A stretch of DNA of 64,000 nt from contig NZ_LVEG02000005.1 of NCBI RefSeq assembly GCF_001614315.2, positions 186,001 through 250,000 of the forward strand, written 5' to 3'. This DNA is from Halofilum ochraceum (GTDB taxonomy: Bacteria > Pseudomonadota > Gammaproteobacteria > XJ16 > Halofilaceae). A program made the translations under genes and the position numbers. Below the pieces are notes generated by a model that was given only the letters and a program-made list of their open reading frames with translations, was not told the origin of the DNA and searched no databases. Each line of letters opens with the position of its first letter. Position 1 is the first letter of the stretch. Positions 9,596 to 40,674 of the stretch are shown here, one piece after another.

Positions 9596-9664
9596 TGGAA
9601 TGGTGCCCGGAGCCGGACTTGAACCGGCACGGCCTTGCGGCCGAGGGATTTTAAGTCCCTTGCG
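9596..9664 (+). repeat. attL: displaced 3' fragment of tRNA-Leu
   Basis: Identical over 69 bases to 40583-40651. It holds only the 3' portion of the tRNA (T arm, variable arm and anticodon loop on the minus strand) and then diverges, so it is not a functional tRNA gene. It marks the far end of the island. Confidence 0.93.
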
Positions 9665-20200: not shown

Positions 20201-22846
20201 AAAACCGATATACCGATCCTGCACCGTCTTTATAATATCCTCTAGCAGCGCTAGCGGTGGCCGTTCGTTCCGCATCTCCATCCACAATTCGCGGACACCA
20301 TCTTCCGTCTGGATGGAGGCATTGTCGACCGCTTCCTGAACACGATCCTCCGCTGCAAAACTCTCACCGGTCTTCAACTCCGGCCGTAGCCGTACCTTCA
20401 ACTCCTTTGACGCGAGCAGGACCGCAAAGTACAAGTCCTCCAAACTCAACTGCGTCGAAAGTGACTTAAACGCCTGCAGGCGTTTAAATCCCCATGCGAT
20501 CATTGGGCGCAACGAATCCCGAACCGAGTACATTTGTAGATTAGGGGCCAACCGAGCCGCAACTTGTCTCGAGTCCGAGAATGTCAGGACTTTGCGACCA
20601 CGTAACGGGGCGAAACTACTCTCTTCCGTGCTCGTGGGCGGCTGAATCTGTATTTGTCGTGCCACGAGCGCCTGGAACGGTTGGTCTCCTTTCGTTTGAT
20701 GGTCTTGAACCGACGATCGCCCAAAGCTGGCCCCTTTACCGCACACAGCACACGGAATGAATTGACCACGTGACTCCAATCGGGAACCCTCACCCGTCTC
20801 AGATACGCTGTCCGCAATGCGCTCATTCCGTATATACACCTGCCTCATCCGAGGCCCGAGCATCTCAGGGTTCAATCTTCCGGTCTCAACATCGTACTCT
20901 GCAGGTTCAACGACCTCCTCGTTGCTTGGCCTTTCAAGGAGAAGATCCAGTGGCTTTAACGCCTCGGTCCGCTCTTCTCCAATACGAATACGGTGGCCCG
21001 GATGCGACCACAAAGCAGACGGAGCATCCACGTCGTCTGTATATGCTCGCGCGTACGCGGTGCCGCAGTTCCTGCACGTAAATAGCTCGAGAACCCGCGA
21101 ACCGCATTCGCACCGCTCAACCGGCTGCGAGTACATCGCTCCACAAATGTCATCCTTCTCCTTCCCGTCCAAATTAGTGCACTCTGGATTCATACACACC
21201 CATAACCCAGGAAGCCCTCGGAAGAAGTTATGTATCCGGCAGGGAAGCAAACCCGCTTCGCCTTCCTCGCGTCGCGCGCTGCTTCCGAGTCCCATTAATG
21301 TTGTAACGGCTGCATCTGCCGTTTCCGGCGAAGCCTCCGGAAATAATAATGGTCCAAGTTCCTCAATTTTCTTGGCATCAACCATCGTTTCATTAATGAG
21401 CCGACTCATCGGGGGGTACTCGATGAGCGCGTCAAATAGATCCATCTCCGGGAGTCCCGTCGCGGAACTTCCACGGTGATCTAATAGCGGCTTTATTATG
21501 TCGGACTTTTCGTTGTCTGTTTTTGCATCGTAAAATCTATCGATATCAATGCCCGCCAACATCTCCGCATCGGCCCGTGTCCCACCGTCCCCATTATCCT
21601 TAAGTGAAAGATCTCCTTTAATCGCTCTGAAAGTATCCGCCGGAATTCCCGATAGCTGCTCACCAAACTCCGGTGCGTAGCTCTCTTGCTCGAAACTCGC
21701 TGTAGAGCAAATGACCTGCAGCCGCTCTGGGGGAATGTGGAGTCGATCTCGTAGACGCCGGATAAGTAGACCAACCTCTGCACCAGCTGCACCCCGATAC
21801 AAGTGCGCCTCATCCAAAACCACGACGAATTTTTCGCTCGGGTTCTCTTCCAGCCACATTCTTGTGCTGTCAAATATCGACCGCTCTATCGGTCGCATAA
21901 GCATATACTCGAGCATCGAGTAATTGGTTACGAGAAGATCTGGCGGAGTCTCCTGCACTTCATGCCTTGTCAATAACTCTGCGTCCAACGGCTGAGTCAC
22001 CGCCCTTTGAAACTTACCTGTACTTCGATTTTGCCATTCAGTCCCTTTATTCCCCATCCATTTCAATAAATCGTCCTTTGCGGGCCACTTACCCTTTGCC
22101 TGCAGCGCCTTGAAAAAACGCTCCGCCTCTTCTCTCTCTTTCTGATCGTCACTGCCCCTGCGTACCAAGACGTCGACGTAAAATGACTCGAACGGCTTAA
22201 GCTTCACACCATCCTTTTTTGCCGTCCTCACCCCTGCGTATGGTGTTCTACTCGTGTACCGCGCAAATCGGACGGGACGGCCCGCCCATTCCATAAATTG
22301 GTCGACGAGACGCCTGTCCCCAAACAACGCCCTTAAACGCCCCAACTGATCGTTGACCAACGCGTTCATTGGATACAAAACCAATGCGCGCATAGCGGGC
22401 CTCGAATTGAAAGTCGTCGGACTTTCCTTCGCCTCGTTCGCCAACCGGCCCAAAACAGGAAGCAGGAATGATTCAGTTTTCCCGGAACCGGTGCCGGTCA
22501 TTACGAGAAGATTTTTATTTTCAACCAAGCTATATCGGATTGCTTCCGACTGGTGCTTATAAGGCGGGTCATAAAGTATACGTGGAAGTTCATCCTCCGG
22601 CCCCGAAAGCCGCGAATAGATGTCCAGAGCCGCTTGTGGCAATCCTTTGATTGCGTCAAATGAATGGCCCAACTGGTAACGTCGGGTTGACTCGACGTAC
22701 GGCACCTGATGGACGACCCCCGGGGTGTCGAGCAACTTCTTTCGTTGCTGTATCAGCGAGGGAGCGCTAATATGATATGTCGCTTCAATATAATCCGTTA
22801 AGGCGCTGTGTAATTCATCGATCGTCTTGTGAATTGTATCGACCAT
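17270..22846 (-). CDS. druE: Giant DUF1998 DEAD/DEAH-type helicase, DruE of Druantia
   Basis: 1858 aa. Helicase domain 1 has Walker A TGTGSGKT (117-124), VLVTNYSMLEYML, the DEAH box in VVVLDEAHLYRG and CSTASF. Cysteine-rich insertions follow (CRNCGTAYARAY and others). Helicase domain 2 has SSTTTMEVGIDLGALSGVA and the arginine-finger motif QQRSGRAGRRG. The C-terminal DUF1998/MZB region contains DTLPGGAGFASQL and the cysteine cluster CPSNCDASCYRCLRS. This size and architecture match DruE, shared by all Druantia types, and also the DrmA/DrmB-type helicases of DISARM. DruE is preferred because a DUF4338 DruA-like gene starts the operon and no DISARM methyltransferase is seen. It starts 17 bp after the 364-aa gene. 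Confidence 0.85.
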   Translation of the reverse strand: MVDTIHKTIDELHSALTDYIEATYHISAPSLIQQRKKLLDTPGVVHQVPYVESTRRYQLGHSFDAIKGLPQAALDIYSRLSGPEDELPRILYDPPYKHQSEAIRYSLVENKNLLVMTGTGSGKTESFLLPVLGRLANEAKESPTTFNSRPAMRALVLYPMNALVNDQLGRLRALFGDRRLVDQFMEWAGRPVRFARYTSRTPYAGVRTAKKDGVKLKPFESFYVDVLVRRGSDDQKEREEAERFFKALQAKGKWPAKDDLLKWMGNKGTEWQNRSTGKFQRAVTQPLDAELLTRHEVQETPPDLLVTNYSMLEYMLMRPIERSIFDSTRMWLEENPSEKFVVVLDEAHLYRGAAGAEVGLLIRRLRDRLHIPPERLQVICSTASFEQESYAPEFGEQLSGIPADTFRAIKGDLSLKDNGDGGTRADAEMLAGIDIDRFYDAKTDNEKSDIIKPLLDHRGSSATGLPEMDLFDALIEYPPMSRLINETMVDAKKIEELGPLLFPEASPETADAAVTTLMGLGSSARREEGEAGLLPCRIHNFFRGLPGLWVCMNPECTNLDGKEKDDICGAMYSQPVERCECGSRVLELFTCRNCGTAYARAYTDDVDAPSALWSHPGHRIRIGEERTEALKPLDLLLERPSNEEVVEPAEYDVETGRLNPEMLGPRMRQVYIRNERIADSVSETGEGSRLESRGQFIPCAVCGKGASFGRSSVQDHQTKGDQPFQALVARQIQIQPPTSTEESSFAPLRGRKVLTFSDSRQVAARLAPNLQMYSVRDSLRPMIAWGFKRLQAFKSLSTQLSLEDLYFAVLLASKELKVRLRPELKTGESFAAEDRVQEAVDNASIQTEDGVRELWMEMRNERPPLALLEDIIKTVQDRYIGFESLAIASIRERGKHTEEIKKLPDLPGVATSDETKVELARAWLRCWQNWGFWLNSMPGDWQNRSKTEGVSVKTRDGGAQFEAIKKLLREKANRESFRDSWTPKLNEIFTENVAGGYRRLRGSELSLCFDGAWVQCRSCRSIHRPLTEVKRCVDCAGTDLREIDPESDQVFLARKGFYRKPVMEALGDKQRRPMALIAAEHTAQLNSPQNEDVFSKAEENELLFQDIALPSDGSRSRATAIDLLSSTTTMEVGIDLGALSGVALRNMPPSRANYQQRSGRAGRRGKAVATVVAFGSSDTHDEHYFAEPDEMIRGAVVDPQLTLDNREIVRRHVRASVLQAYHQDRIRVVDPQQPHDLFSVLGTVSEFLKEDAVLNRWDFENWLNEHRRELSENILTWIPRQLPKSEQREIVDNLVSDCLRAVDHATGQSPDAVRGESESTTVETDIVESVPEEGDDLKRELTDQDKLLDRLLYCGQLPRYAFPTDVATFHVFDTERSTRFRPVMRFAPSQGLPVALSQYAPGKQVWISGKCYTSGAIYSVMKEDRYAAWNDKRLYMECSDCGFARTLSPDEAERNEVRDCTACGGEETFGPARYWMCPPGFAHPIDAEEVTSPDDMPETSYATRAKLTMGTPDADAGWTAATERVRSIPIRQHLLVSNTGPNDEGYTYCVKCGRIEASDTPNPSVSGAHKKPYPDTDRQQTCEGGGATKHLVLGTDFITDILLLSMKVAAPIKLKPGEYTTDVALRTVSEALAQAACQILEIEPGELMAEYRPALTAGGSSGLESEIFLYDTLPGGAGFASQLSECTLDLYRRALRLLQSCPSNCDASCYRCLRSFKNRFEHELLDRHVGAELLEYLIDGRQPEFDEARIRASTDLLCSDLERQSDGSRIISKDARVPGPDGVTREVPILVQDETGEQHIIALSGALTAGHPADPKIRDMLDGTIPVYVENELLVRRNLPTATRNVQRQLKEANLSFR

Positions 22847-22863
22847 CAGTTTTCGCTCGCATT

Positions 22864-23958
22864 TCAGTCATCGGTCGGGATCAACCAAGTTCGGCTTTTC
22901 AGAAACTCTTCCTCAGTCTCTGCTTCCTCGTTCGATAGGACGTACGACACAACGCTTCGGTTGCTCGGACACGCGGCTCCCACTGCCATCAACCGCCGCT
23001 CTGCCCACTTTGGCAGCGGTGACAGGAAATCCAGCCGGACCTCTCCATCCTGCTCTTGTCGTCGGTAGCGCTGCGGCTGTCCTGAAAGATAATCCAGTGC
23101 CATCTGAACATGCCATGCGATATCACACCCTCTCCAGCGGGAATTCCCCGAGGGAAGATCCATTAACCGCGTCGGCACACCATCTTTCAGTTTAACTAAA
23201 CACCAAAGCGGGTTTCCGTACTCTTGCGGGCGCCGCCCAACAAACATTCCCGTGTGCGCATTAGGCTCTACCCACCTACCTGTGTAATACGTGACGGGCT
23301 TATCCATATCTATAATCGTTAGCTTAGGGACTTTTCCGCATTCAGCCTGAGCGGCCAGTCTATTCTCCATATCGATTACCAACTCGTCCGCCGTGTCGGC
23401 CCTTGGTGTTTTCAGCCAGGCGTCCATAGACAGTTCCAGAAACCCGTACTCCCGGAGTTTCTCCGCTAGATCCTCCGTTGCTTCCGGATTAATCACGCGC
23501 ATCGATCCCACGACCACCACGCGATCGACCAGCGCGGCCGGGATAAACGTATCTTGATCCGGCGAGATTCCAATCAGGAATATATTACCGCTAGGACGCA
23601 CTACGAAGCTCGGCGGTGCCCCATACACCCACGTCCCCTTAAGCGCCGGGTCATGTGACGACAGGTCCCGGACCTCGAGCAAATCGCCTCCGACCACCAA
23701 CATTTCAATGGCATGCGTTATCTCGTCTTCCAGTGACCGCGACGCTTTGCTTAAATACTGTAACGATTCCCATACTGTGCTACGCAAAGTCGCTGGTGCG
23801 CAAGGACATAGGATGCCTGCCGCTCGACGCACAAGCATTGCGAGCAATTCACCGCTAATAGTTCCTTCACTATCGTACCTTAAACCTGTGGTTCTCTTTG
23901 ATAGCGCGATTACGTCGTGCGCCTCGATCTCTTCCACGGCCATTGCGTCCCTATCCAT
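22864..23958 (-). CDS. Druantia-operon protein of unknown function (DruD position)
   Basis: 364 aa, no domain recognised. It is soluble and moderately acidic. It overlaps the end of the 952-aa gene by 8 nt and precedes druE by 17 bp, so it is translationally coupled within the operon. Its place just before druE corresponds to DruD in type I Druantia. That assignment rests on position only. Confidence 0.65.
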   Translation of the reverse strand: MDRDAMAVEEIEAHDVIALSKRTTGLRYDSEGTISGELLAMLVRRAAGILCPCAPATLRSTVWESLQYLSKASRSLEDEITHAIEMLVVGGDLLEVRDLSSHDPALKGTWVYGAPPSFVVRPSGNIFLIGISPDQDTFIPAALVDRVVVVGSMRVINPEATEDLAEKLREYGFLELSMDAWLKTPRADTADELVIDMENRLAAQAECGKVPKLTIIDMDKPVTYYTGRWVEPNAHTGMFVGRRPQEYGNPLWCLVKLKDGVPTRLMDLPSGNSRWRGCDIAWHVQMALDYLSGQPQRYRRQEQDGEVRLDFLSPLPKWAERRLMAVGAACPSNRSVVSYVLSNEEAETEEEFLKSRTWLIPTDD

Positions 23959-26809
23959 CTAGTTCACGGTTCATTCGCCACATAAGCACCGCGAATCTGG
24001 CAGCGCGCATGATATATTGGTTCGCCCAAATATACTGGAGGAGACTCTCCATACCTTGGTTGTATTCGTCATTGATTCGCGCCGGATCGACCGCCAGCCA
24101 AAATGCTCCGTACAGATGTGATCGATCACCGCAAAGACGATATGTTTGAGCCATCCCTGCAAAGTGACTTTCCACATCCCGAAAAGTCGGAAGGTTCTCC
24201 CAATTGCTTTTCCGTAGTTCCGTAACGCATTGGCTAGTGCTTGGCCCCACACCGCGCATAAGGTTCCGTAACGCCTTTTCGTCAGTCGGTGCTTTCCAAT
24301 ATTGTTCTTCGAGTCGCATCCATTTCGAACCACATAGGCTGCGCCATATTTCCGTTTGGATACGTTCGATAACCTTTTTGCGGCGAACATCTGCCAAAAG
24401 ACCCGCCAGCCATGCTTCTTTCCAACGCACCAGGGCGTTCATTCCGCGCAGTAACGCTTGCGGACCGGCGCTGAGATCATCCACCTCCGGCGACACGTTT
24501 AAGCCTTGAAGCCCTTCACCGGCAAGTCCCGTACTGACGACAACCGAATCACGAAACTCTCCGGCGTACGCTACGAAGAGCGCGCCCGGCTCATGGACAT
24601 CTACATTCTCTCTAAATAACGTCGAGTCAAACCTCCGCTGGCGCACCGGCGTTTGCATATCGAACACCTCGCACCCCGCTCTCTCCGATTCCATCCCCGT
24701 CTCGTCTATCATTCTTAGACCGACAGTGCTGTTCCGGCGCGTAGGAACCCACCGCACTGGTCGCGGACGACGTTCGAAGTGGATCGTGCACGCACCAATT
24801 TCGCCACCGTCTATGGTTACCCTGCACGAGTTGGCCTCAAGGTACGCCCATTGGCTCCCTTCATCTCTTGTGGAGTGGTCGAACTCATGCGCCCATGTTT
24901 CTGTTGACACCGGCAATCCCATTGCGCCGTCAACTTGACGCGAAAACAGTTCATTCCCTTGGTAGTCGTGTAATTGTAGGGTGCAGATGACCTCATGGCT
25001 TGGAGGGCCCGATATCCCAATCTGCACCTTGTTCTCCCAGAAGTCCTCGAGATATGCGTCATAAGGATCAGTCGTGACGAGCAGCGCATTCTGCAACGTG
25101 GTCCCGGCGCGCCAAGGCTCTGGATTTCGAACATCCAGGATAAGTTCCCCCTCAGGCGGCGCATCTACACCCCCGAACTTATCGTCCCCGTCTCTCTCAA
25201 CTTCAATATCTATGTAATGCGATCCAGTACTCAGCGGTGGTATGCGGAAAAACGAAGGGTCCCCGTTTGATTTTGCTGACACCGACGTGCCATCATCGTC
25301 GTCGATGTACACGACGTATCCATTGACTGGATAGTCACTAACAACCCCAAAACACGGTGTCTCAGTAGTAAGCCATTCGCTCCTACCTTCACCGTCCCAA
25401 TTCCGCGCTGGCAAACCAGCAGGCCATACTCGGATTGTTCTGGCGACATGTAATCCTTCGCTTTCGATTCTGCGTCTCAATGCATCCGGTACGTGATCCG
25501 GCATAGAAAAATGCACTCCCGATACCAGATCGCAATCGATCAAACACCGAGTCATGCCAGGTAGATCTTGAAGCGCGTCACTTTTGCTTATTACGATGTA
25601 ACGATTACCCGGCCTGACAGCCTTCGTTACGACTTCTTTTGCCAGACCATCTCGCCCGACCTTAAAAAGCCAAACGGGGCCGGCACTAAGTCGGCAGTCA
25701 TTGTCGAGAATGTTTTCAATAAGCGGATTCGCTCTTTCAAATTGAATCAACGGCTGCCGGTCGTCAGGCCATGTTCTTATTACGGCCATGCGTCTACCGG
25801 ACGCCGCCCACCCACGGGGTTTCCAATCCGGAGCACCTTGGACCCTGCATCGTGTTTGGCGAAGGAAGTTCCTTGTTTCGTCATTGACCATACCCAAAAT
25901 GGCGCTCAATCCGGGGATATCGACGATGACTGACCACTCGTTCTCGCCCACGTGGCGCAGGACCAGTTTCGGTCGAATCTCGGGGTATGACTTCTCGTCC
26001 TGATCGTCTGATGATTCCCTCGCGTCCCGCGTCCGCGGCCTTGACGATCTTGAGCGGCGGCGCGCCCATCGAAATGAATCCGTTACAACGTTTCGCGTTT
26101 CGTTAAGCCACTCCCGCGCCTTACGGACTCTTTCGAGATCCGTTACTATACGAGACAAAGTCGATTCATATATCGGCTCTATTTCCAGCTTCTGTTCGCT
26201 GTGCAGCATGGCTAGTACGATGCGTCCGCACAGTTCTTCCTGCTCAAGGAATTGACCGAATCTTTTTGAATTCGGATGTGCATGCGCCGCCATAACGCGG
26301 CCGATTTCAATCGGTGACCCGGTACTCAGCGATAACAACTGATAACGAAGATCATATACCGCTTTCGCGAAGTGCATCTGCAGGAAGCGCGGAAGAATGG
26401 CGTGCGTTATCGGCCACGCTATGATCTTAAACTGGTTCGCCCACGCTCCCGATGGAATTACGCCGTCGTACCGTTCCTGAAACGCTTTGAAAAATGGCAA
26501 TATGCTGCTACGGTCTCCGATACCCCAACCCGGTGTATTCGCTTCAAACGATGGCCAGTACTCATCGCCTTCATAGGCATAGCCCTGCTCAGTAGCGTAC
26601 ACGGCCCACAATAACCAGTAGCGCTCCCGGGCCGTTCGATCATACGCAAGCGCGCGCAGCCCTTCCGAGAGATCAATTAGATCGGACTGCGAGAGTCCGT
26701 GTTCGAATACGAACAATCGAAACCCAGTACCACTGCGCCGCGATGCGAGTCGCGCAAAGTGAGCCTCTAGTTTCTCTTGCAACGAATCGAGAGGTGCTGA
26801 CACGCTCAA
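23951..26809 (-). CDS. Large Druantia-operon protein (DruB/DruC position; STY4851-like)
   Basis: 952 aa. The N-terminal part (residues 60-170) contains YWLLWAVYATEQGYAYEGDEYW and ITHAILPRFLQMHFAKAVYDLR, which I recall from the STY4851/ECs_5259 family found in genomic islands. The middle has a basic RRRSRSSRPRTR stretch (about 270). The rest looks beta-rich, with repeated D-rich strands (VVYIDDDDGTS, SHYIDIEVERDGDDKFGG), and there is no catalytic motif I can name. It begins directly after the druA stop. Type I Druantia has separate DruB and DruC genes before DruD; a single long gene here suggests fusion or loss. Confidence 0.65.
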   Translation of the reverse strand: MSVSAPLDSLQEKLEAHFARLASRRSGTGFRLFVFEHGLSQSDLIDLSEGLRALAYDRTARERYWLLWAVYATEQGYAYEGDEYWPSFEANTPGWGIGDRSSILPFFKAFQERYDGVIPSGAWANQFKIIAWPITHAILPRFLQMHFAKAVYDLRYQLLSLSTGSPIEIGRVMAAHAHPNSKRFGQFLEQEELCGRIVLAMLHSEQKLEIEPIYESTLSRIVTDLERVRKAREWLNETRNVVTDSFRWARRRSRSSRPRTRDARESSDDQDEKSYPEIRPKLVLRHVGENEWSVIVDIPGLSAILGMVNDETRNFLRQTRCRVQGAPDWKPRGWAASGRRMAVIRTWPDDRQPLIQFERANPLIENILDNDCRLSAGPVWLFKVGRDGLAKEVVTKAVRPGNRYIVISKSDALQDLPGMTRCLIDCDLVSGVHFSMPDHVPDALRRRIESEGLHVARTIRVWPAGLPARNWDGEGRSEWLTTETPCFGVVSDYPVNGYVVYIDDDDGTSVSAKSNGDPSFFRIPPLSTGSHYIDIEVERDGDDKFGGVDAPPEGELILDVRNPEPWRAGTTLQNALLVTTDPYDAYLEDFWENKVQIGISGPPSHEVICTLQLHDYQGNELFSRQVDGAMGLPVSTETWAHEFDHSTRDEGSQWAYLEANSCRVTIDGGEIGACTIHFERRPRPVRWVPTRRNSTVGLRMIDETGMESERAGCEVFDMQTPVRQRRFDSTLFRENVDVHEPGALFVAYAGEFRDSVVVSTGLAGEGLQGLNVSPEVDDLSAGPQALLRGMNALVRWKEAWLAGLLADVRRKKVIERIQTEIWRSLCGSKWMRLEEQYWKAPTDEKALRNLMRGVGPSTSQCVTELRKSNWENLPTFRDVESHFAGMAQTYRLCGDRSHLYGAFWLAVDPARINDEYNQGMESLLQYIWANQYIMRAARFAVLMWRMNRELDG

Positions 26810-28051
26810 CTAACCTTCTTCATCCGACAGTGTCCTCGGAGTGTTACTATCCCCTTCCCTCGTCCATGCTAGGTCAACTCTTTGTGGATGCGCGACTAGA
26901 TCTCTTATTCCTTTTGACGGCCAGTCGCGAAACTCCGGGCGTCTAGACGCACGCGGCACCATCCACCGATTGACCGCCTGTTCGCCGATTTCCTGAACCG
27001 TGGAGAGCGATGATAGGTCCGGACGCCCCTTACCGGTACGTAGAATCGAGGCACCGTTTCGGGCTAAAAACGAAATAAACACCTCCCGGTTTACACCGTG
27101 ACGTAATATATCGTCCCCGATTCCTAATTCCACGAACGCAGTCCGTAACGTTCGAAGTCGCCAATTGGGTCCTTGGCCGTACGCATGGTGATCGGCGTAA
27201 TGATGCCCAATAAGCCGCAAATACTCGCGGAGTTCCTGGAACAAACCATCCGGGATGTGGAAATGCCCCCACCCACCCGTATAGCCGATTGATGTCAAGT
27301 ACCGAGTACCGTTAATTTTTAGTCTGTTATACACGGAGGAACGGCCCATCGACGAGGACGTGGTTATTGCGAGCAGACGTGCTTGTTTCCGCTGTTCCGA
27401 TATTATCCCCGTACTCGATCCGTAGACCTTTCGAAAATCATCATAAACGTCTCGACTACTGATCAGGCAGGCGACAAGCTTTCCTCCTAGTAGCAAGTTG
27501 TACGGAGGCACTGCACCAACCACGTATGCGTCCATGAGATTCGCAAGTCGGTTTGATCGGTCTCTCGAGTCCCAGCCAATGTAGCGGTCTCGCACTCCAA
27601 GATTGAAGACCGGATCGCCAATTGCGAATATTCCTATCAATTTGCCGTTGGACGCGTCCCATACTAGATACCTGAGCCTGCGACCAAACCCTTGAGACAC
27701 AGGCACTGACCAAGTCAACGAAGCGAGTCGGAACAGATCGCCCTGCCAGCTTTTTGCTCGAACCCGTTCTATTGTAGGTCGAATTCTCTCCGGGTCGACT
27801 TCATTTCCAGATGCAAAGTACTTATTTAAACGATCGATATTATGTTGTATGAATTCCTTATTCTCTTTTTGTCGGTCCGCTCTTTGCGGACCGTGCAGCG
27901 CTCTCACCACCTCTTTACCATTACCGGACGCATGAAGATTGCCGTCAGCTCCTTTCCGCAAACCTATTCCATTCAAATGCCGTCGTATTTTCCGTTTTAG
28001 CTGGGCTTCACGGGCGCTAATCTTCACGACTTGGTTATTCTTATTCGACAT
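26810..28051 (-). CDS. druA: DUF4338 protein, DruA of type I Druantia
   Basis: 413 aa. After a basic N-terminus (residues 10-35) the protein carries the DUF4338 signature region: RYLVWDASNGKLIGIFAIGDP, then RDRYIGWDSRDRSNRLANLMDAYVVGAVPPYN and LLGGKLVACLI. DUF4338 proteins are the diagnostic first component (DruA) of type I Druantia anti-phage systems. It is the first gene of a tight minus-strand operon. A 455-bp non-coding region upstream probably holds the promoter. Confidence 0.85.
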   Translation of the reverse strand: MSNKNNQVVKISAREAQLKRKIRRHLNGIGLRKGADGNLHASGNGKEVVRALHGPQRADRQKENKEFIQHNIDRLNKYFASGNEVDPERIRPTIERVRAKSWQGDLFRLASLTWSVPVSQGFGRRLRYLVWDASNGKLIGIFAIGDPVFNLGVRDRYIGWDSRDRSNRLANLMDAYVVGAVPPYNLLLGGKLVACLISSRDVYDDFRKVYGSSTGIISEQRKQARLLAITTSSSMGRSSVYNRLKINGTRYLTSIGYTGGWGHFHIPDGLFQELREYLRLIGHHYADHHAYGQGPNWRLRTLRTAFVELGIGDDILRHGVNREVFISFLARNGASILRTGKGRPDLSSLSTVQEIGEQAVNRWMVPRASRRPEFRDWPSKGIRDLVAHPQRVDLAWTREGDSNTPRTLSDEEG

Positions 28052-28506
28052 TACATATTTCCCACGTTGCCTACTAACATAGTTTTGAATGTCCGCAGGG
28101 CGTCACGCACCCACGTTCTGGTCTTACGATATCTAATAGGAAAGCAGTTGTGCGCCGTACGCTAGACGGCGCACAAATGTCAGTTGCACTGGGCCGCCGT
28201 CCATCGCGCTCAAGCGTTATGGAGGCGCATTGTCCTTCTAGCACCGGGACCTGGCGTCCGAAATCACCGTGGGAGCCACGTTGGGTGGCTGGGCGGCAGA
28301 GTGGATTGAGCATCGTTTCCTTCCCTGAGTTCCGCCTGTGCGTTCAATGTAGCGCGCACCGGGGGGCGATGACCAGCATTCGGGGACCCGTCGCCCATGC
28401 GAGACGCTTCGTGCCGGCATTGCAGCCCCGTGCGTCAGCGCCGTATTGGGCGAACGTCACCGGTCAGTGCTACAGCGTCGACACGGGACAAGGGAGTCCG
28501 GTCACA
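28052..28506. other. Non-coding region upstream of druA
   Basis: No gene supported over 455 bp. It probably contains the promoter of the Druantia-like operon. It includes one copy (28295-28390) of a repeat also found at 36465-36560. Confidence 0.5.
28295..28390 (+). repeat. Dispersed repeat family 2, copy 1
   Basis: This stretch closely resembles 36465-36560: both carry TTCCCTGAGT, CGCCTGTGCG and CAATGTAGCGCGC in the same order and spacing. The minus-strand translation of both reads SPPxARYIxRTGxTQGR, so it may be a relic of a coding sequence. Confidence 0.7.
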
Positions 28507-29190: not shown

Positions 29191-30014
29191 CTCGTCATTG
29201 AGCGATGGTTTTGACCGGTATTGTAAAGCTAGACACCCGTACAGCGTTCGGAGCGAGTTTGAAAATTCGGACCGGGAGTCCCAGATGGCTTTCGCGCCCC
29301 CGCGCCGACCCCCGTACTAGCCGGAGGAAAAGACCGGTGATCCGGCGGCACGCCGAGCCGTCAAGCTCCTGCACGGCCACGGACAACCGGGGTTCACCCC
29401 GCTCGTACCGCCGGAATCGTATCCACTGGGCCGCCACAGCGTCCTGTATGAGCTTTCCCCGTGCTTTCCCCGCCTTTGCCCTACAGGTTCGCCATACTCG
29501 CAGTACACAGCGTCCACATGCGCTCTCGTGAGGCAGAAGGCCTGGTGATATCCGATCATATCCGTCAATTGGCGCCGCGGCACTCCCATGCAATCGGCGA
29601 TAGGGCTGAGACATTCGCCGTCGTTGCGCTGTCTGTTTGCTTCCGAATACCCTTGCCTACTGTCCTTGCCGGAAACGCCCACCGGAGCACTTTCCTCGTG
29701 CCCGGGGAATCGAAATTTGATTTTGCCTCGCGGCTTCGGGACTTCGCAGCTAGGGCAGCGTTCCGCCACGCGATCCTTCAGCACACATACTCAAGGGCAG
29801 CCATCCGAGCGAGCCGATCAACGGCAGAAGGCCCGCCTAAACGTCGCGCGAAGCAGCCGGCCGAAAGAAGCTTTCGCCAATCAGCCCGAAGGCGAATGCA
29901 ACCGCCGCCACCGAGGCCGGGTAATCGGCGTCGTCGGCGCCTCCAAGCGCCAGCCAATTACTCAACCAGTACAACTTGCCCAATCGAAGCCGAGACATTG
30001 ACAGGCGGTCCGCG
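29191..30014. other. Non-coding region with a decayed repeat copy
   Basis: Over 800 bp without an intact gene. The first 450 bp are repeat family 1 copy A. The rest, on the minus strand, has a possible further piece of the same decayed gene with a CPSCEVPKPRGK segment near 29740. Confidence 0.5.
29255..29640 (-). pseudogene. Dispersed repeat family 1, copy A: decayed gene
   Basis: Two minus-strand frames together give one broken protein. The upstream part reads IGYHQAFCLTRAHVDAVY...EPVGQ; after a frame change comes KLIQDAVAAQWIRFRRYE and then RRITGLFLRLV and GRESHLGLPVRIFKLAPN. The same blocks recur in copies B and C. The mixed frames and absence of a start show that it is no longer expressed as one protein. 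Function unknown. Confidence 0.6.
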
Positions 30015-31040
30015 TCACCTAATCAGTTCCCGCATTTGATCTACGGACAGAACCCCTGGTCCTTCTCTAGCGTTAACTTCAAATGGCTCTGCACCCGGAT
30101 AGGCTTCTTTCCAGATTCGCTCACCAGCTTTCTCGAGAACGCGTATATCGCGTTTAGGGAGACGATAGGCGAAATCCGGAGGCCGGTAAGCGAGTTTTAT
30201 CGGTGACGCCCCTTTAACGTCCTTTACCGGCGAATCTCCATAAACGCGCCAGATGACGTCCTCATTATTCAGGTTTCCCCAACGGTCAAAGCACAAGTCG
30301 ATAATGTCTACACCATCAAGAAGTCTATCTACTTCCCGCCAATTCTCGTACCCGTCAAGATTCTCTGCCAATTGAGGCTGCTCTTCTTGCAACTCTAGCG
30401 CTCGGTCTTTGATATACCCTTTGGCCGCCTTACTTAGATCAGACTCCTCCTCATTGTATACGGCGAACACAACCCGATCCCGAAGATCATCGGGGCTATT
30501 TTGAAGCACGTCGAGGAGCCGTTCATTGCGATTCCGATGGATTCGTCCCTTAATGCGGCGCCGTTCCCACGCTTTTCGCGCCAGCTTTAAATCGTGCTTC
30601 GTGATCTCTTTCGTCGCCGCGGAATCCCAAAGCGACTGCGCCCATGAATTGATGTCGGCCAGAATATTGGGGTCCGATACCTCAATGGCCGCCTCGTAAA
30701 GTTGAGTGCTACCTTCATCCTCAAATCCCAGTCCATTCGCCGAGGCATTCGCGGAACCTACGATTGCCCGATGAGCGCTCGCATATACCTTCGCATGCAG
30801 ATTCGAGTTATGTCGGATATAGACCCCCCTATCAAGCAAGTCCTGGACAGCGTCTGGATTTGTTCCTCCAAGGGCCAGATTGCAAATAGCGCGAACCTGC
30901 TTCATATGCGTGGAAGAACCCAGCAACTTCTCGGGCGCGCCCTTTCCCCAAAAAGCAGATATTAGAAATGCATCTCCTGGCTCATCGATAAGATCGCGCA
31001 CTCGTTGCACTATATCGGTATCGGTGACAAAGTCGGTCAA
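30015..31040 (-). CDS. Phospholipase D-family (HKD) protein, probable nuclease
   Basis: 341 aa. One HKD motif is seen: H82-x-K84 followed by GSAN at 95-98 (NLHAKVYASAHRAIVGSANAS). PLD-type nucleases with one motif act as dimers. The remaining two thirds are helical and charged and end in a basic/hydrophobic tail; no other domain is recognised. It begins with TTG, but a GAGGAGAG stands about 9 nt upstream, which supports this start. Similar PLD proteins occur in defence systems (for example DrmC in DISARM), but this gene is separated from the Druantia-like operon by about 2 kb. Confidence 0.75.
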   Translation of the reverse strand: MTDFVTDTDIVQRVRDLIDEPGDAFLISAFWGKGAPEKLLGSSTHMKQVRAICNLALGGTNPDAVQDLLDRGVYIRHNSNLHAKVYASAHRAIVGSANASANGLGFEDEGSTQLYEAAIEVSDPNILADINSWAQSLWDSAATKEITKHDLKLARKAWERRRIKGRIHRNRNERLLDVLQNSPDDLRDRVVFAVYNEEESDLSKAAKGYIKDRALELQEEQPQLAENLDGYENWREVDRLLDGVDIIDLCFDRWGNLNNEDVIWRVYGDSPVKDVKGASPIKLAYRPPDFAYRLPKRDIRVLEKAGERIWKEAYPGAEPFEVNAREGPGVLSVDQMRELIR

Positions 31041-31590
31041 TTTATTTCTCTCCTCTTATAGCGCGATGGTACCGTTTTCATAATCAACACAATTCTTGGA
31101 TCACAATTTCACCCAACTCCGTAACTGGATACTAAGCGGTTTCAACATTTACGTTCGGCTTTCTTCAACAGTCGTAACTACGAATGGACCTTCCTACTGC
31201 CCGCAGACGACAAAGCGCTGACGAACTCAGTGATCAAAACGATCCACTTTATTTGATTACTACCGTACGTTTATTGGATTGGCGATGCGACCACAAACTG
31301 TAGCTTCTTTGCCACCATTTCATCCGTCTGCGCTTCGCTGATCCCTGCCTCCAGGGTCGCGAGATACTTTGTCTCGACGCGTTTCGCTTCGGAACGAACC
31401 TGTCGCTACTTGTCCTTGCAGGTCGTCTCCGCGCCGGGGAGGAATATCCTGTCGCTTGACAATGCCGGATCATGGCACGCCCAAGAAGTCGGTCGCACCG
31501 ACGTCATGGGCGCTTACGCCCAACAGGACGCGTACTCCGAACTGCATCTGGCCCCCGTTGAAAGGACACCTCCCCAGTTCTCGTTCAGAG
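31041..31590. other. Non-coding region between PLD and FtsZ-like genes
   Basis: 550 bp with no intact gene. It holds a possible coding remnant at 31271-31396 and otherwise nothing recognised. Confidence 0.45.
31271..31396 (-). pseudogene. Possible C-terminal remnant of a lost gene
   Basis: A minus-strand frame reads RSEAKRVETKYLATLEAGIS, then EAQTDEMVAKKLQF and stop. It has a protein-like composition but no start; a stop codon lies just upstream in frame, and a coding-like stretch (LQGQVATG) continues in another frame. This suggests a frameshifted relic. Parent gene unknown. Confidence 0.3.
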
Positions 31591-32460
31591 CTACGTCGAA
31601 GCGTCATCGACACGTTGGCCCGCGAGGAGCGCGACCTCGAGGGTGCGGTCATCCAGCACCGGTGCGGCGAGCGCAAAATTCGCCGCGGGCGCGATTCGCC
31701 TGAACATATCCGCGACGTGCTCGAACTCCCAGATGGCGCAGTCAGTCGGCAGCCCGACCACAACGAAACCCGCCGAGTAACACGTGGTGTCGAACGCGCG
31801 GCACTCGAGCGCGGCGATTGCTTGGTCGCAGGCCAGCGCTGCGCGGCCTTCTCCACAGGCCTGGCCGAAGCCCGCGAGCACTTGCCACCAGCTGCCCCGG
31901 AACACCTGCCGGAAGTCAGCCCAGTCCACGCCGACCATTCCCTTAGTGAACAAGCCGGTGAACAAGGCCTGCCCGAATCCCGCGAACACACACGGGCCAT
32001 CACAGTCCGGAGCGAGTACGCTTCCGCCCGAAACGCGTAGATGGGGCTTGGGCGCGACGGAGGCGTCGTCCGTGGCTCCGCCACCCACATTACCGAGTTC
32101 AAGGTGCAAGCACCGATCCGCACACGCCGTTAGCATCTCCCGGCCAAGATCAGTGTATAGAACCGACGGACCAACCGTCACAAGTACGACCAGATCTACC
32201 CTCTGCAATGAAACAACCGATAGCAACGCGGACCGGCTCATCTCACCGCGTTCTGTTTCGAGGGGACAATTGGGTTTAGCACACCATGCCTGGGCGTGGC
32301 GCGTGAGCGCATCAGCATGGATCGCAGCGGCGTCACCGAACGCCAAAATCAGTACATTAATTTCGCTGACCTCCACGGACGACTCGGTTCCGACTAGCGC
32401 CCGGAATCGCCACTTGTGCACTGTCCACGCGGCGTCTTTATCCGAATTGTCTTCACTCAC
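31591..32460 (-). CDS. Divergent FtsZ/tubulin-like protein with degenerate GTPase motif
   Basis: 289 aa. Residues 174-282 align by eye with the FtsZ T7 loop and C-terminal domain: GMVGVDWADFRQVF compares with the FtsZ pattern NVDFADVRxVM, then WWQVLAGFGQACGEGRAALA with MGSGxAxGEDRA, and CYSAGFVVVGLPTDCAIWEFEHVADMF plus a final LEVALLAGQ strand. The N-terminal half keeps the likely strand order (INVLILAFGDAA; VDLVVLVTVG), but the GTP-binding GGGTGTG motif is replaced by VGPSVLYTD. Nucleotide binding is therefore probably lost or altered. It has no FtsZ C-terminal tail. It sits alone among defence genes, with an 8-bp tandem repeat about 90 bp upstream. It may act on host or phage FtsZ/tubulin; that is speculation. 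Confidence 0.6.
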   Translation of the reverse strand: MSEDNSDKDAAWTVHKWRFRALVGTESSVEVSEINVLILAFGDAAAIHADALTRHAQAWCAKPNCPLETERGEMSRSALLSVVSLQRVDLVVLVTVGPSVLYTDLGREMLTACADRCLHLELGNVGGGATDDASVAPKPHLRVSGGSVLAPDCDGPCVFAGFGQALFTGLFTKGMVGVDWADFRQVFRGSWWQVLAGFGQACGEGRAALACDQAIAALECRAFDTTCYSAGFVVVGLPTDCAIWEFEHVADMFRRIAPAANFALAAPVLDDRTLEVALLAGQRVDDAST

Positions 32461-32586: not shown

Positions 32587-32649
32587 AATCGTCCTCCATG
32601 ATCGGTCCCCCGTGATTTTGGCGATCGTAGTCTCCTCGCGTACGACATC

Positions 32650-32880
32650 CGGACCGATCTCAAGAATCCGAAGTGGGAGTCCCAGTTGGCTTTCACGTCC
32701 CCATGCTGTTCTGTGGTGAACCATCTGGAGGAAAAGACCGGTGATACTGCGACACGCGTGGGATCGAGCCTCAAGACCACCACCGACCACCGGGGTTCGC
32801 GACGCTCCTATCGTCAGACTCGTCGCTACTGGGCCGACACAGCCTGGTGTATAAGCTCTTAGCGCGTTCTCTCCTTGCAC
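32650..32880 (-). pseudogene. Dispersed repeat family 1, copy B: decayed gene
   Basis: The minus strand reads SITGLFLQMV, GRESQLGLPLRILEIGP and DVVREETTIAKITG, matching copy A (RITGLFLRLV, GRESHLGLPVRIFKLAPN). The upstream part corresponding to the KLIQDAVAA block carries stop codons. It is clearly degenerate. Confidence 0.6.
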
Positions 32881-32916
32881 ACCCCCTACTCGAGCAACTG
32901 GCTGGTCTCCGACCCT

Positions 32917-33636: not shown

Positions 33637-34052
33637 ATATACTCAGAACCTCTTGTCAAAAGCACGGCAAAACGCAACAGCACGCAACTTGACGCTCAAC
33701 GCATAGCTAACAGGACGGCTCGACAAAGCCGGTAACGTGGTCCAGCCAGAGATAGTCCGGGGGCAATCGCACAATCTCCCACGCGGTTACGCACGGCCGA
33801 CGCACACCCCACTCATACCGCCGGAACCGTATCCAGTGGGCCGCCACAGCGTCCTGTATGAGCTTTTCGCGCGCCATCCCCTACTTGCCCCACTGGCTCG
33901 ACGTGCGCGAGATATATGGCGTCCACATCGGCTCTCGCGAGCCCGAAGGCCTGGGGATATCCAATGATATCGAGCACATGGCTCTGGGTAATCCAGAGCA
34001 ATCGCCCTTTGGGGCTTAACCATCCGCCGCCGTTGCGCATTCTGTTCTGTAG
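33637..34052. other. Non-coding region with a decayed repeat copy
   Basis: About 415 bp with no intact gene; most of it is repeat family 1 copy C. The first 150 bp probably hold the promoter of the 239-aa gene. Confidence 0.5.
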
Positions 34053-36422: not shown

Positions 36423-36922
36423 ATACGCTCCTCGTGGTCGTGATTGGTCTTCGATTCTCACCATACGTGGCTGGATCGCGTACTGGCCGGAGCATCATTC
36501 CCTTCCCTGAGTCGCGCCTGTGCGAGCAATGTAGCGCGCCTCGGGTGGCGATGGCCAGAACCGGCGCACAGGGGTGCATCCACCCGTGGCCGAGCGGATT
36601 GGTTTGGTCGTATCGGTTGCCGGTATCAGTGCGTCTTCGGTCCGCCTCCGGCCCGAGTGGGCGCGGGCTGTGCTGCTGAGAGATCGCCGCGGCCAGGCTG
36701 ACCGTACCCTGGATTCGAGCCGCCGGGAATGTGAAGGTGGGAACGAGGACACCTCAAGCCACTACCCGAGCGAACGCGGACCGAGGCTCTAGCGGAATGC
36801 GCCCCGCGCGGTCACTTCCTTTAGGAGCTGCCATAGTGCCAGTCAGGGCGCATCGATTAGAGTTTCCTTAGTGAGAACCACACCGGGCTACCCCTAGTAT
36901 CGCTCTGTGCCACAGTAGCCTG
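36423..36922. other. Non-coding region with repeat family 2 copy 2
   Basis: About 500 bp between two minus-strand genes. It holds the repeat copy at 36465-36560; the rest shows nothing recognisable. Confidence 0.5.
36465..36560 (+). repeat. Dispersed repeat family 2, copy 2
   Basis: Matches 28295-28390 in sequence blocks and order. It runs up to the 5' end of the 168-aa gene, so the longer start codon of that gene falls at its edge. Confidence 0.7.
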
Positions 36923-38065
36923 TTAGTTCAATATCCAATCCATACTTGCGGCACTAAATCCATCAAGGCAAATCTCTGTACGATCCCAGTTGACGAAGCG
37001 ATACCGATCCCGAATTTCAGCGTCGTTTTTATCGCTCGGATCGTAGTCGAGTATCCGTGCAGGCCCCTTCTTCCGTCCCGCCAGTTCCAAATCCGGCTCA
37101 ACTTCAGTAAAATTCGAAAAGATATGGTATAGGACTTGTTTGGCGTACTCATCGTACGGCGGCAATGAGTATCCGATAACCGACAACGAGCGATTTAGCC
37201 CGCCGAGTCGCTGTAATCCCCACCAAAACGGCCGTAGAGGTCCGGAATAGAAGATCTTGTTATGCGAGGGCGTCAGTACAAGCGGACAACATTCCCAGAA
37301 TCCTCGATTAATCAGAGGAGCAACATCTGATACCCGGTAGATCTTCGCCAAATGGTCTCCTTCTTCTCTTGGACCATCTGTCAGTGGAACTGCATCGACT
37401 ATTGATCGCTCCCCGAAAACCGCATGCTTAACGGTATAAGGCATCGGGCACGATTGAGCATGCTCTACCTTCCTTTCATACGGTGCACGATGAAACCAAT
37501 CAATAGAGCCGTGTAGTTTTATAACAACAACTTCTTCACGAGAGTCATCGATCGTATTAGACGCCCAACCGATCTCCGAGAAACGCTCTGGGAATAGCCG
37601 ATACGGAATTTCTTCAGCTTCAAGAGCACACTCAAGTAACGTGTCATAGTTGAATGTAAAGATTACGTCGTCTGGGTTTAGGCGTCGCGCAAATTCTCGG
37701 TACAGTGACGGAACCTCTTTCGGCGTAGCAGTATTTAACACTTCGGCGATCCCTTGTCGGATCATCAACTGGGATTCGTTTCCCTCATCACTCCATGTAT
37801 CTTTTCCCTTAAGCCCGAGGACGTGTTCTATATCCAAGAACCCCATAAATTGTTCGTAATCGACGGAGTCGATCGTAACGGATATTCCTTCGCAGTCTTT
37901 GATGTAAGTTGCATAACGGATTAGGTCGCGTTCAATTGGATTATCTATCCCGTACCGTCGCTTGATTACCTCTCGAACCTTCGCGAACAACTCATCACCG
38001 AGCGGGAGACCTGCAGGTTTCGAAAAACCAGCGCCGAGAATCACGATTCGGAAGGTCTTGGACAC
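36923..38065 (-). CDS. SIR2-domain protein, probable NAD-consuming defence effector
   Basis: 380 aa from the GTG at 38065 (GAGAG just upstream); the frame is open further up from a TTG at 38089. It has SIR2-like NAD-binding motifs: VILGAGFSKPAGLP at the N-terminus, FTFNYDTLLECAL, IKLHGSIDWFH and SVIGYSLPPYDEYAKQVL. The spacing fits the bacterial SIR2-like group whose members destroy NAD+ during phage infection (as in ThsA, DSR and SIR2-pAgo). Those need a partner or trigger domain; none is fused here, and the downstream non-coding region separates it from the nuclease-like genes. Zinc-binding cysteines of true deacetylases are not apparent. Confidence 0.8.
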   Translation of the reverse strand: MSKTFRIVILGAGFSKPAGLPLGDELFAKVREVIKRRYGIDNPIERDLIRYATYIKDCEGISVTIDSVDYEQFMGFLDIEHVLGLKGKDTWSDEGNESQLMIRQGIAEVLNTATPKEVPSLYREFARRLNPDDVIFTFNYDTLLECALEAEEIPYRLFPERFSEIGWASNTIDDSREEVVVIKLHGSIDWFHRAPYERKVEHAQSCPMPYTVKHAVFGERSIVDAVPLTDGPREEGDHLAKIYRVSDVAPLINRGFWECCPLVLTPSHNKIFYSGPLRPFWWGLQRLGGLNRSLSVIGYSLPPYDEYAKQVLYHIFSNFTEVEPDLELAGRKKGPARILDYDPSDKNDAEIRDRYRFVNWDRTEICLDGFSAASMDWILN

Positions 38066-38161
38066 TGCGCTCTCTCTTAAACTCAACAAAAAGGCTCAGC
38101 GGTCCCGCAAGCACGTAGCGGTTGCCGCGTCGGTTGCAGTGATTCCTTGCGCATCGAACTA

Positions 38162-39220: not shown

Positions 39221-40393
39221 TCATAGGCGGTCCAAGACTGCCTTGACTTGTGCGACATCCTCAGCCCTATAGTGGACATACTGCATCGTCATCTGGATCG
39301 TGCTGTGTCCAAGCTGATTTTGCAGCTGGTATGCAGGGAGTCCGCCGTCGAGCGCGCGCGTCGCAAATGTATGGCGTAGTCCGTGAAAACTGGGAGCGTC
39401 CGGAACGCCTCCAGCTTTCTTGATGCGCTTAAAGGTTTCCTGCAGTTGGTACATGGGGCGCTCCGGATTTCGACCGGGAAACAGAAAGTCTCCCTGACCG
39501 CTCGCATTCGAGACTGCGGATAGTTGCAGTAACAGCTGCCGGAGGGCGTCGCACATTGCCACTCTACGTTGGCGCCCGCTTTTGGTGGTGCTATGGACAG
39601 TTCCCCGCTGTGCGGTCTGGGCGATTTGAATTATGGAAGCGTCGAAGTCGATGTGGCGCCACTGCAATCCGAGAACCTCACTTGCGCGCAGCCCCGCGTA
39701 CGAGCCTAAACCGACCAATGCTCGCTCCGAAGCCGATTTGCAGCCTTTCCAAAGGGAGCGGGACTCTTCCTCAGTGAAAATCCTTGCTTCCTTCGGTTCT
39801 GGGCGAAACGCGCGTACACCTCTTGCTGGATTCTCGATCGTTCCATCGTATTGGCGCGCGTGCTGGAACACGCACGACAAAAGACTCGTTATCCGTGTGA
39901 CCGTTGATTTCGAGAGTCCCTCGGCCAGCAAATCAGTCCGGTACGCTTCTACATCGCCGACAGTAATATGGTCGAGACGGTGACCGCCGAATCGAGGCAG
40001 GAGCCGCGCCTTCATGCGCTCGGCGTTATGTTTGTAGTCCGCGTGGGTAACCCGACTCCACTCCAGAAAGCCGCGACTGGCTTCTTCGAACATCGGGGGG
40101 GCGTTAGGAGTTCCCCCACGCCGACCTGCTGGCGCCGTTAGAACCGCTTGCGCGCGGACCTCCTCGAGCATGCGTCGCGCTTGGGACAAAGTCATCCCGT
40201 CGCGGTGCTCACGCCCCAATGTGCCTTTGCGGCGGCGGCCAGACACCCGGATGTCGTAGCGCCAGACTCCGTCGCTGCCGTCGGCCAGCTTGCGCCAAAT
40301 TAGCCCGTTTTGGGAAATCTCGTGGTTCGGCTCAAGGTCCGCCTTGGCCTGGCGCGAAAATGGATTGGCGGATTTGTTGTTCGTGGATTGCAT
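39221..40393 (-). CDS. int: Tyrosine site-specific integrase
   Basis: 390 aa from the ATG at 40393, which has a clean GGAGG 6 nt upstream; the frame extends to 40450 without such a site. The N-terminal domain is of the arm-binding type (GRRRKGTLGREHRDGMTLSQAR), followed by a SAM-like core-binding domain. Catalytic residues are visible: R in GSYAGLRASEVLGL, H-x-x-R in FHGLRHTFATRAL, LGHSTIQMT, and the nucleophile Y in MQYVHY. It lies about 190 bp from attR and its gene points away from the tRNA. It should recombine the 69-bp repeats to insert or excise the island. Confidence 0.92.
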   Translation of the reverse strand: MQSTNNKSANPFSRQAKADLEPNHEISQNGLIWRKLADGSDGVWRYDIRVSGRRRKGTLGREHRDGMTLSQARRMLEEVRAQAVLTAPAGRRGGTPNAPPMFEEASRGFLEWSRVTHADYKHNAERMKARLLPRFGGHRLDHITVGDVEAYRTDLLAEGLSKSTVTRITSLLSCVFQHARQYDGTIENPARGVRAFRPEPKEARIFTEEESRSLWKGCKSASERALVGLGSYAGLRASEVLGLQWRHIDFDASIIQIAQTAQRGTVHSTTKSGRQRRVAMCDALRQLLLQLSAVSNASGQGDFLFPGRNPERPMYQLQETFKRIKKAGGVPDAPSFHGLRHTFATRALDGGLPAYQLQNQLGHSTIQMTMQYVHYRAEDVAQVKAVLDRL

Positions 40394-40439
40394 GTATACC
40401 TCCGTTGGTTGATTTCGGAGGTATTTATTCGCGCGCCCA

Positions 40440-40460
40440 CGAGGGGGCATTGAGGGGGCA
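40440..40460 (+). repeat. Tandem 11-bp repeats near attR (possible integrase arm sites)
   Basis: CGAGGGGGCAT-TGAGGGGGCA, period 11 bp, same orientation as the pair at 9724-9744. Lies between the integrase start and attR. Confidence 0.55.
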
Positions 40461-40582: not shown

Positions 40583-40651
40583 TGGAATGGTGCCCGGAGC
40601 CGGACTTGAACCGGCACGGCCTTGCGGCCGAGGGATTTTAAGTCCCTTGCG
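40583..40651 (+). repeat. attR: 69-bp direct repeat overlapping the intact tRNA-Leu
   Basis: Perfect copy of 9596-9664. It covers the 3' part of the functional tRNA-Leu(UAA) gene plus five bases beyond the CCA. Confidence 0.93.
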
Positions 40652-40674
40652 TCTACCCATTCCGCCATCCGGGC
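40588..40674 (-). tRNA. leuZ: tRNA-Leu(UAA)
   Basis: 87 nt, with acceptor stem GCCCGGA/TCCGGGC, encoded CCA, anticodon loop CTTAAAA (anticodon TAA) and a long class II variable arm. Its place after tRNA-Gly and tRNA-Cys downstream of pgsA matches E. coli leuZ. It is the island's integration target, and the 3' end was restored by the island. Confidence 0.95.

Follow-up and report, generated by a model that had tools for sequence, protein, structure and literature searches.

The gene at positions 31591–32460 (minus strand) of the 64,000 nt stretch analyzed here, referred to as the window, almost certainly encodes an FtsZ-derived protein without a GTP site. It is 289 aa long and has a GTG start codon, with a G-rich stretch, CTGGGGGC, immediately 5' of the start. 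As judged from its sequence, the protein is a pseudo-FtsZ in which helix H7, the T7 loop and the C-terminal domain of FtsZ are kept and the GTP loops and the C-terminal tail are lost. It is a real and unusual FtsZ variant with a putative mechanism only. The most likely function, put forward tentatively, is that of an FtsZ mimic, i.e., a decoy or bait for FtsZ inhibitors that is carried as mobile defence cargo.

Homology to FtsZ

The similarity to FtsZ is found at residues ~157–272. A phmmer search of all PDB chains returns FtsZ chains as the sole matches (36 distinct sequences, best E value 1.5e-4, residues 166–272). Of 94 related genomes, 78 have a match, which is nearly always their own ftsZ of ~390 aa; the best of these has an E value of 1.5e-9 and 33% identity. 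A profile built from 18 full-length FtsZ proteins detects the protein with an E value of 9e-9, compared with 0.28 for the best among 2000 shuffles, and no other open reading frame of the window (at least 60 aa) has a value better than 1.6. hhalign stretches the match to residues 157–271 (positions 31648–31992, minus strand), which represent the end of H7, the T7 loop and the C-terminal domain up to the last strands.

The original prediction was that the C-terminal ~110 residues align with the T7 loop and C-terminal domain of FtsZ with the motifs in order. This is borne out by all four motifs, which pair in the same order: VDWADFRQV with VDFADVRTV, GEGRAALA with GEERAREA, AIWEFEHV with SIGEFEEV and LEVALLAGQ with LRVTVVATGL. 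By alignment, the T7 (synergy) loop is at residues 172–186, TKGMVGVDWADFRQV (31903–31947, minus strand), the start of helix H10 at residues 242–249, AIWEFEHV (31714–31737, minus strand), and the last strand at residues 274–282, LEVALLAGQ (31615–31641, minus strand). Both aspartates of the T7 loop (D209 and D212 in E. coli) are kept, and N207 is replaced by G (GVDWAD compared with NxDxxD). The homology of the C-terminal domain to that of FtsZ is real on the evidence of these alignments. The sole further match in the host genome is its normal ftsZ, which is upstream of an lpxC-like gene. Searches of Pfam, NCBIfam and PADLOC give zero matches for the pseudo-FtsZ, and it matches no PADLOC model of known anti-phage systems.

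Lost segments and the N-terminal half

The T1 glycine loop GGGGGN and the T4 signature GGGTG(S/T)G are absent from the translation, and there is an alignment gap at the place of T4. The GTP-binding motif GGGTGTG had been reported missing in the original prediction, and to this loss that of GGGGGN can be added. The protein stops 7 residues after the last strand and has neither the C-terminal linker nor the conserved tail peptide; the FtsZ of the host carries the tail ...EDIEYLDIPAFLRRQAD. The protein is predicted to be unable to bind GTP by the FtsZ mechanism, and should therefore neither polymerize nor act as a GTPase. Overall, it resembles FtsZ in H7, the T7 loop with both aspartates and the C-terminal domain in order (E values 1.5e-4 to 1e-9), but differs in the missing T1 and T4 loops, linker and tail peptide, in its shorter N-terminal half and in that a normal ftsZ is present elsewhere in the genome.

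No homology of the N-terminal half is detected by the FtsZ profile or by hhalign, and its other weak matches, to polar or low-complexity proteins, are noise. This half may be a reduced core in which strands S1 and S4 and helices H1 and H4 are left. Candidate strand S1 and helix H1 are at residues 34–60, from INVLILAFGDAAAIHADALTRHAQ, without the T1 glycine loop (32281–32361, minus strand; predicted strand at 34–40 and predicted helix at 44–60). Candidate strand S4 is at residues 87–97, RVDLVVLVTVG, with the T4 (GGGTGTG) loop missing (32170–32202, minus strand; from the alignment and a predicted strand at 90–96). The strand order of the FtsZ sheet is 3-2-1-4-5-6, thus what is left would correspond to the central strands, the edges having been trimmed. 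The plausible strand layout proposed earlier for this half is compatible with the data, but no profile detects the half and it is modeled with a pLDDT below ~55.

Structure models agree with the FtsZ assignment to a limited extent. A single-sequence AlphaFold2 model has a pLDDT of 35 and no structural match in the PDB, and is uninformative either way. An alignment-guided model has a pLDDT of ~50–76 in the C-terminal part and below ~55 in the N-terminal half. In a fold search with this model, FtsZ accounts for all 50 matches listed, the tightest having 94–96 columns at 2.2–2.4 Å in the C-terminal domain. Because the alignment used for guidance contained FtsZ rows, the guided model is a consistency check and no independent proof. 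Comparison with predicted structures, which had been proposed for this protein, thus gives FtsZ with the guided model, as a matter of consistency only, and nothing with the single-sequence model.

The integrated element and its cargo

The gene is located in an integrated element of 31 kb that is bounded by a perfect 69-bp repeat, the 3' part of tRNA-Leu(UAA), and a Xer-like integrase. The left att repeat is at 9596–9664 and the identical right repeat at 40583–40651, where it overlaps tRNA-Leu(UAA) (40588–40674, minus strand). The integrase, a Xer-like tyrosine recombinase by family search, is at 39221–40450 (minus strand). The element has a G+C content of 54% and the neighbouring host DNA 67%; at 62%, the pseudo-FtsZ gene is above the other island genes measured. 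The right-hand flank with its tRNA genes is found in both same-genus genomes too.

Several defence genes are present, all on the minus strand. Type I Druantia is at 17270–28051 and consists of DruE (17270–22846), DruD (22864–23958), a 952-aa protein (23951–26809) and DruA (26810–28051). A SIR2-like protein (36923–38089) and a PLD-domain protein with a weak DrmC-like score (30015–31040) were identified by family and PADLOC searches, and a DUF6994 protein is also part of the cargo. The pseudo-FtsZ gene is a solitary gene located 551 bases upstream of the PLD gene, and is not beside division genes.

Two other properties of the element were observed. The 952-aa protein between DruD and DruA takes the place expected for DruB and DruC in type I Druantia and has no match in Pfam, NCBIfam or PADLOC. 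Intergenic blocks at 29238–29637, 32639–32884 and 33772–34046, as well as 28285–28376 and 36467–36558, are repeated between cargo genes and are 70–79% alike. The part tested, 29362–29637, is matched only here in the host genome, and a search of two same-genus genomes gave no match. Integron-like cassettes between the island genes were considered for these blocks, but the blocks have no Rfam match and nothing was found in support.

Directly downstream of the pseudo-FtsZ gene are the last 96 codons of a type II restriction endonuclease gene (31205–31492, minus strand; 42% identity, E value 3e-18), which we take to be EcoRII-like. Remnants such as this one, together with the lack of a promoter match for the pseudo-FtsZ gene and of a close relative to show selection, would be in keeping with the gene itself being a decaying FtsZ-derived relic without function. 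This is improbable, however, in that the frame is open over 289 codons at ~25–33% identity to FtsZ, where neutral saturation would be expected to produce 8.5 stops (P of none, 2e-4). By codon position, the bases follow a coding-type pattern (0.68/0.50/0.70), and two relatives, described below, are 36% identical over almost the full length. The open frame, the coding base pattern and relatives with kept frames point to a maintained gene.

Relatives and their genomic settings

No close relatives were found by a pattern scan of genome contigs of 85k species or in sampled plasmids, phages and IMG/VR, and searches for close orthologues found none in 94 related genomes, 369 genomes of the class (searched with the N-terminal half) or 399 genomes of the phylum. 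Three further FtsZ-like proteins without GTP motifs were found, all of them gammaproteobacterial. They are encoded in genome G074 (L029:1721–2587, minus strand, 288 aa, FtsZ profile E value 1.6e-10), in Alkalilimnicola ehrlichii AK92 (L069:5507–6169, minus strand, 220 aa) and in an Ectothiorhodospiraceae MAG (L076:5702–6403, plus strand, 233 aa). Like the Halofilum protein, they have lost the GTP loops, keep H7, the T7 loop and the C-terminal domain, and are of similar length (220–288 aa). Only the G074 and Halofilum proteins have a significant match to the FtsZ profile on their own, and the T7 loops of the A. ehrlichii and MAG proteins are changed, to VEPED and VEPDD.

The A. ehrlichii and MAG proteins are the pair with 36% mutual identity, and each resembles the G074 protein. 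Similarity in the N-terminal half runs among the three relatives (G074, G755 and G783), but none is detected between these three and the Halofilum protein. A profile of the N-terminal half finds only the G074 and MAG proteins in 368 sampled genomes of the class, and a whole-family profile finds only the three relatives in a search of 54 genomes of one order, which implies that pseudo-FtsZ proteins are rare. In a tree of the C-terminal domain all four are on one side, but the branches are saturated, with end branches up to the maximum of 10, and the tree is therefore unable to separate one origin from several.

The genomic settings of the relatives also differ from that of the Halofilum gene. 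The A. ehrlichii and MAG genes lie among genes for xanthine dehydrogenase (MoCo and FAD subunits, XdhC), a transporter, OHCU decarboxylase and urate oxidase, and the MAG gene overlaps the end of the OHCU decarboxylase gene. Xanthine dehydrogenase/urate clusters holding GTP-less FtsZ-like genes are at L076 5200–9900 and L078 8001–16634, in two Ectothiorhodospiraceae-type genomes. There is a 7-base overlap between the G074 gene and an ADP-ribosylglycohydrolase gene (L070 5936–7587, G074:C6), and ~2 kb away is an HsdM-like gene of a type I R-M locus, in which HsdM and HsdS were named by reading the translations. A Schlafen/AlbA protein also belongs to this locus. Toxins are known to act by ADP-ribosylation of FtsZ.

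It had been proposed that the gene is defence-island cargo, with a survey of relatives for repeated location in such islands as a check. The proposal agrees with the presence of Druantia, SIR2-like and PLD genes on the mobile element that holds the gene, but the survey does not show a repeated location of this kind: of the three relatives, one has a type I R-M locus nearby and the other two are in purine catabolism clusters. Residence in a defence island thus belongs to the Halofilum locus and not to the group.

These settings bear on whether the protein could have been repurposed outside division and defence, e.g., for a scaffolding or regulatory task in nucleotide metabolism, and be on the element by chance. 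The positions of the A. ehrlichii and MAG genes and the MAG gene overlap would be in accord with such a role, as would the overlap of the G074 gene with an ADP-ribosylglycohydrolase gene. There are no such neighbours at the Halofilum locus, however, and the Halofilum protein is tied to the relatives through its FtsZ part alone; it also matches FtsZ better (best E value 1.5e-9) than it does the nearest relative. A repurposed protein is a possible but rather unlikely explanation.

Proposed function

The FtsZ mimic would act through the sole FtsZ surface that is kept, the synergy-loop/H10 face, and would offer this face to FtsZ attackers such as phage or SOS-type inhibitors, for which it would be a sink or bait. 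SulA, MciZ and MinC bind the C-terminal (plus-end) face of FtsZ (PMC11938149), and phage T7 Gp0.4 has been placed on the same face by modeling, in a report where the Gp0.4-FtsZ complex is also described as activating the defence protein CapRel-Ebc (PMC13423816). This makes FtsZ inhibition a meeting point of phage and immunity. Since FtsZ inhibitors bind at the kept face, a pseudo-FtsZ on a defence element could be such a sink or bait.

Consistent with a mimic are the FtsZ homology found by four methods, the loss of the GTP loops with retention of the T7 aspartates and the H10 start, and the several defence genes on the element. Kept T7/H10 positions are in excess in the G074 protein (exploratory Fisher p 0.006); the value for the Halofilum protein alone, 0.09, is not significant. 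Against a mimic, two of the three relatives are in xanthine/urate clusters without a defence link and have changed T7 loops, and the Halofilum gene is nearly an orphan. In E. coli, F268 substitutions give resistance to SulA, Gp0.4 and T5 Hdi, phage T5 also making an FtsZ inhibitor (PMC10714956), but the F268 position is T in the Halofilum protein and M in the host FtsZ. The more specific form of the proposal, a dedicated GTPase-dead FtsZ decoy or bait that soaks up or senses phage FtsZ inhibitors and either protects division or triggers a neighbouring effector, is doubtful.

The nearest alternative to the FtsZ mimic is docking on FtsZ itself with a disturbance of division. The T7/C-terminal face would dock on the nucleotide-binding face of the host FtsZ and end or disturb the filament, the protein having no nucleotide-binding face of its own; if activated or induced in infection, it would stop division, which was the function originally suggested. 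Loss of the GTP face, with retention of the T7 aspartates and of the domain turned towards the neighbouring subunit, is compatible with such a poison. GTPase-poor relatives of FtsZ, e.g., plant ARC3, are known to regulate FtsZ. Chloroplast ARC3 is an FtsZ-derived regulator and a poor GTPase that keeps the N-terminal FtsZ-like part and has added MORN repeats. The Halofilum protein may be likened to ARC3 as FtsZ-derived with poor GTPase, but is set apart in that ARC3 keeps the N-terminal part. Tight regulation of FtsZ-ring assembly by ARC3 has been described (PMC13335998). With the C-terminal (plus-end) face kept, however, the Halofilum protein could dock only on the minus-end (N-terminal) face of FtsZ; binding of that face is said to favour nucleation and stabilization, and known inhibitors use the other face (PMC11938149). 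The N207 of the T7 loop and the recruiting tail peptide are also lost. Division poisoning is considered unlikely, and the FtsZ mimic is favoured over plain capping, decoy or bait being at least as plausible.

Comparison with known systems

FtsZl1 and FtsZl2 are, like the Halofilum protein, divergent members of the FtsZ/tubulin superfamily (PMC2875224). In both of them it is the C-terminal region that is altered, and the nucleotide-binding domain is retained along with GGGTG(S/T)G (Makarova and Koonin 2010, PMC2875224), whereas the Halofilum protein keeps the opposite half and has no GGGTG(S/T)G. Archaeal FtsZ paralogues without functional motifs have already been noted (PMC2875224), thus motif loss as such is not new. 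CapRel-Ebc sensing of Gp0.4 and FtsZ is similar in that defence is tied to the inhibitor-binding face of FtsZ, but there the real FtsZ is the co-trigger, and no FtsZ mimic was found in the part of that report consulted (PMC13423816). A literature search found no description of a protein reduced to the C-terminal half of FtsZ, or of an FtsZ mimic in defence.

Judging by the pseudo-FtsZ proteins, the T7 loop and C-terminal domain may be able to persist without the GTPase. One of these proteins is encoded alongside Druantia and SIR2-like genes on a mobile element, and phage inhibition of FtsZ has just been reported to trigger immunity (PMC13423816). Should the protein truly serve as a decoy or bait, defence would have its first FtsZ mimic, as far as could be found; should it act on FtsZ, it would represent a new type of division regulator.
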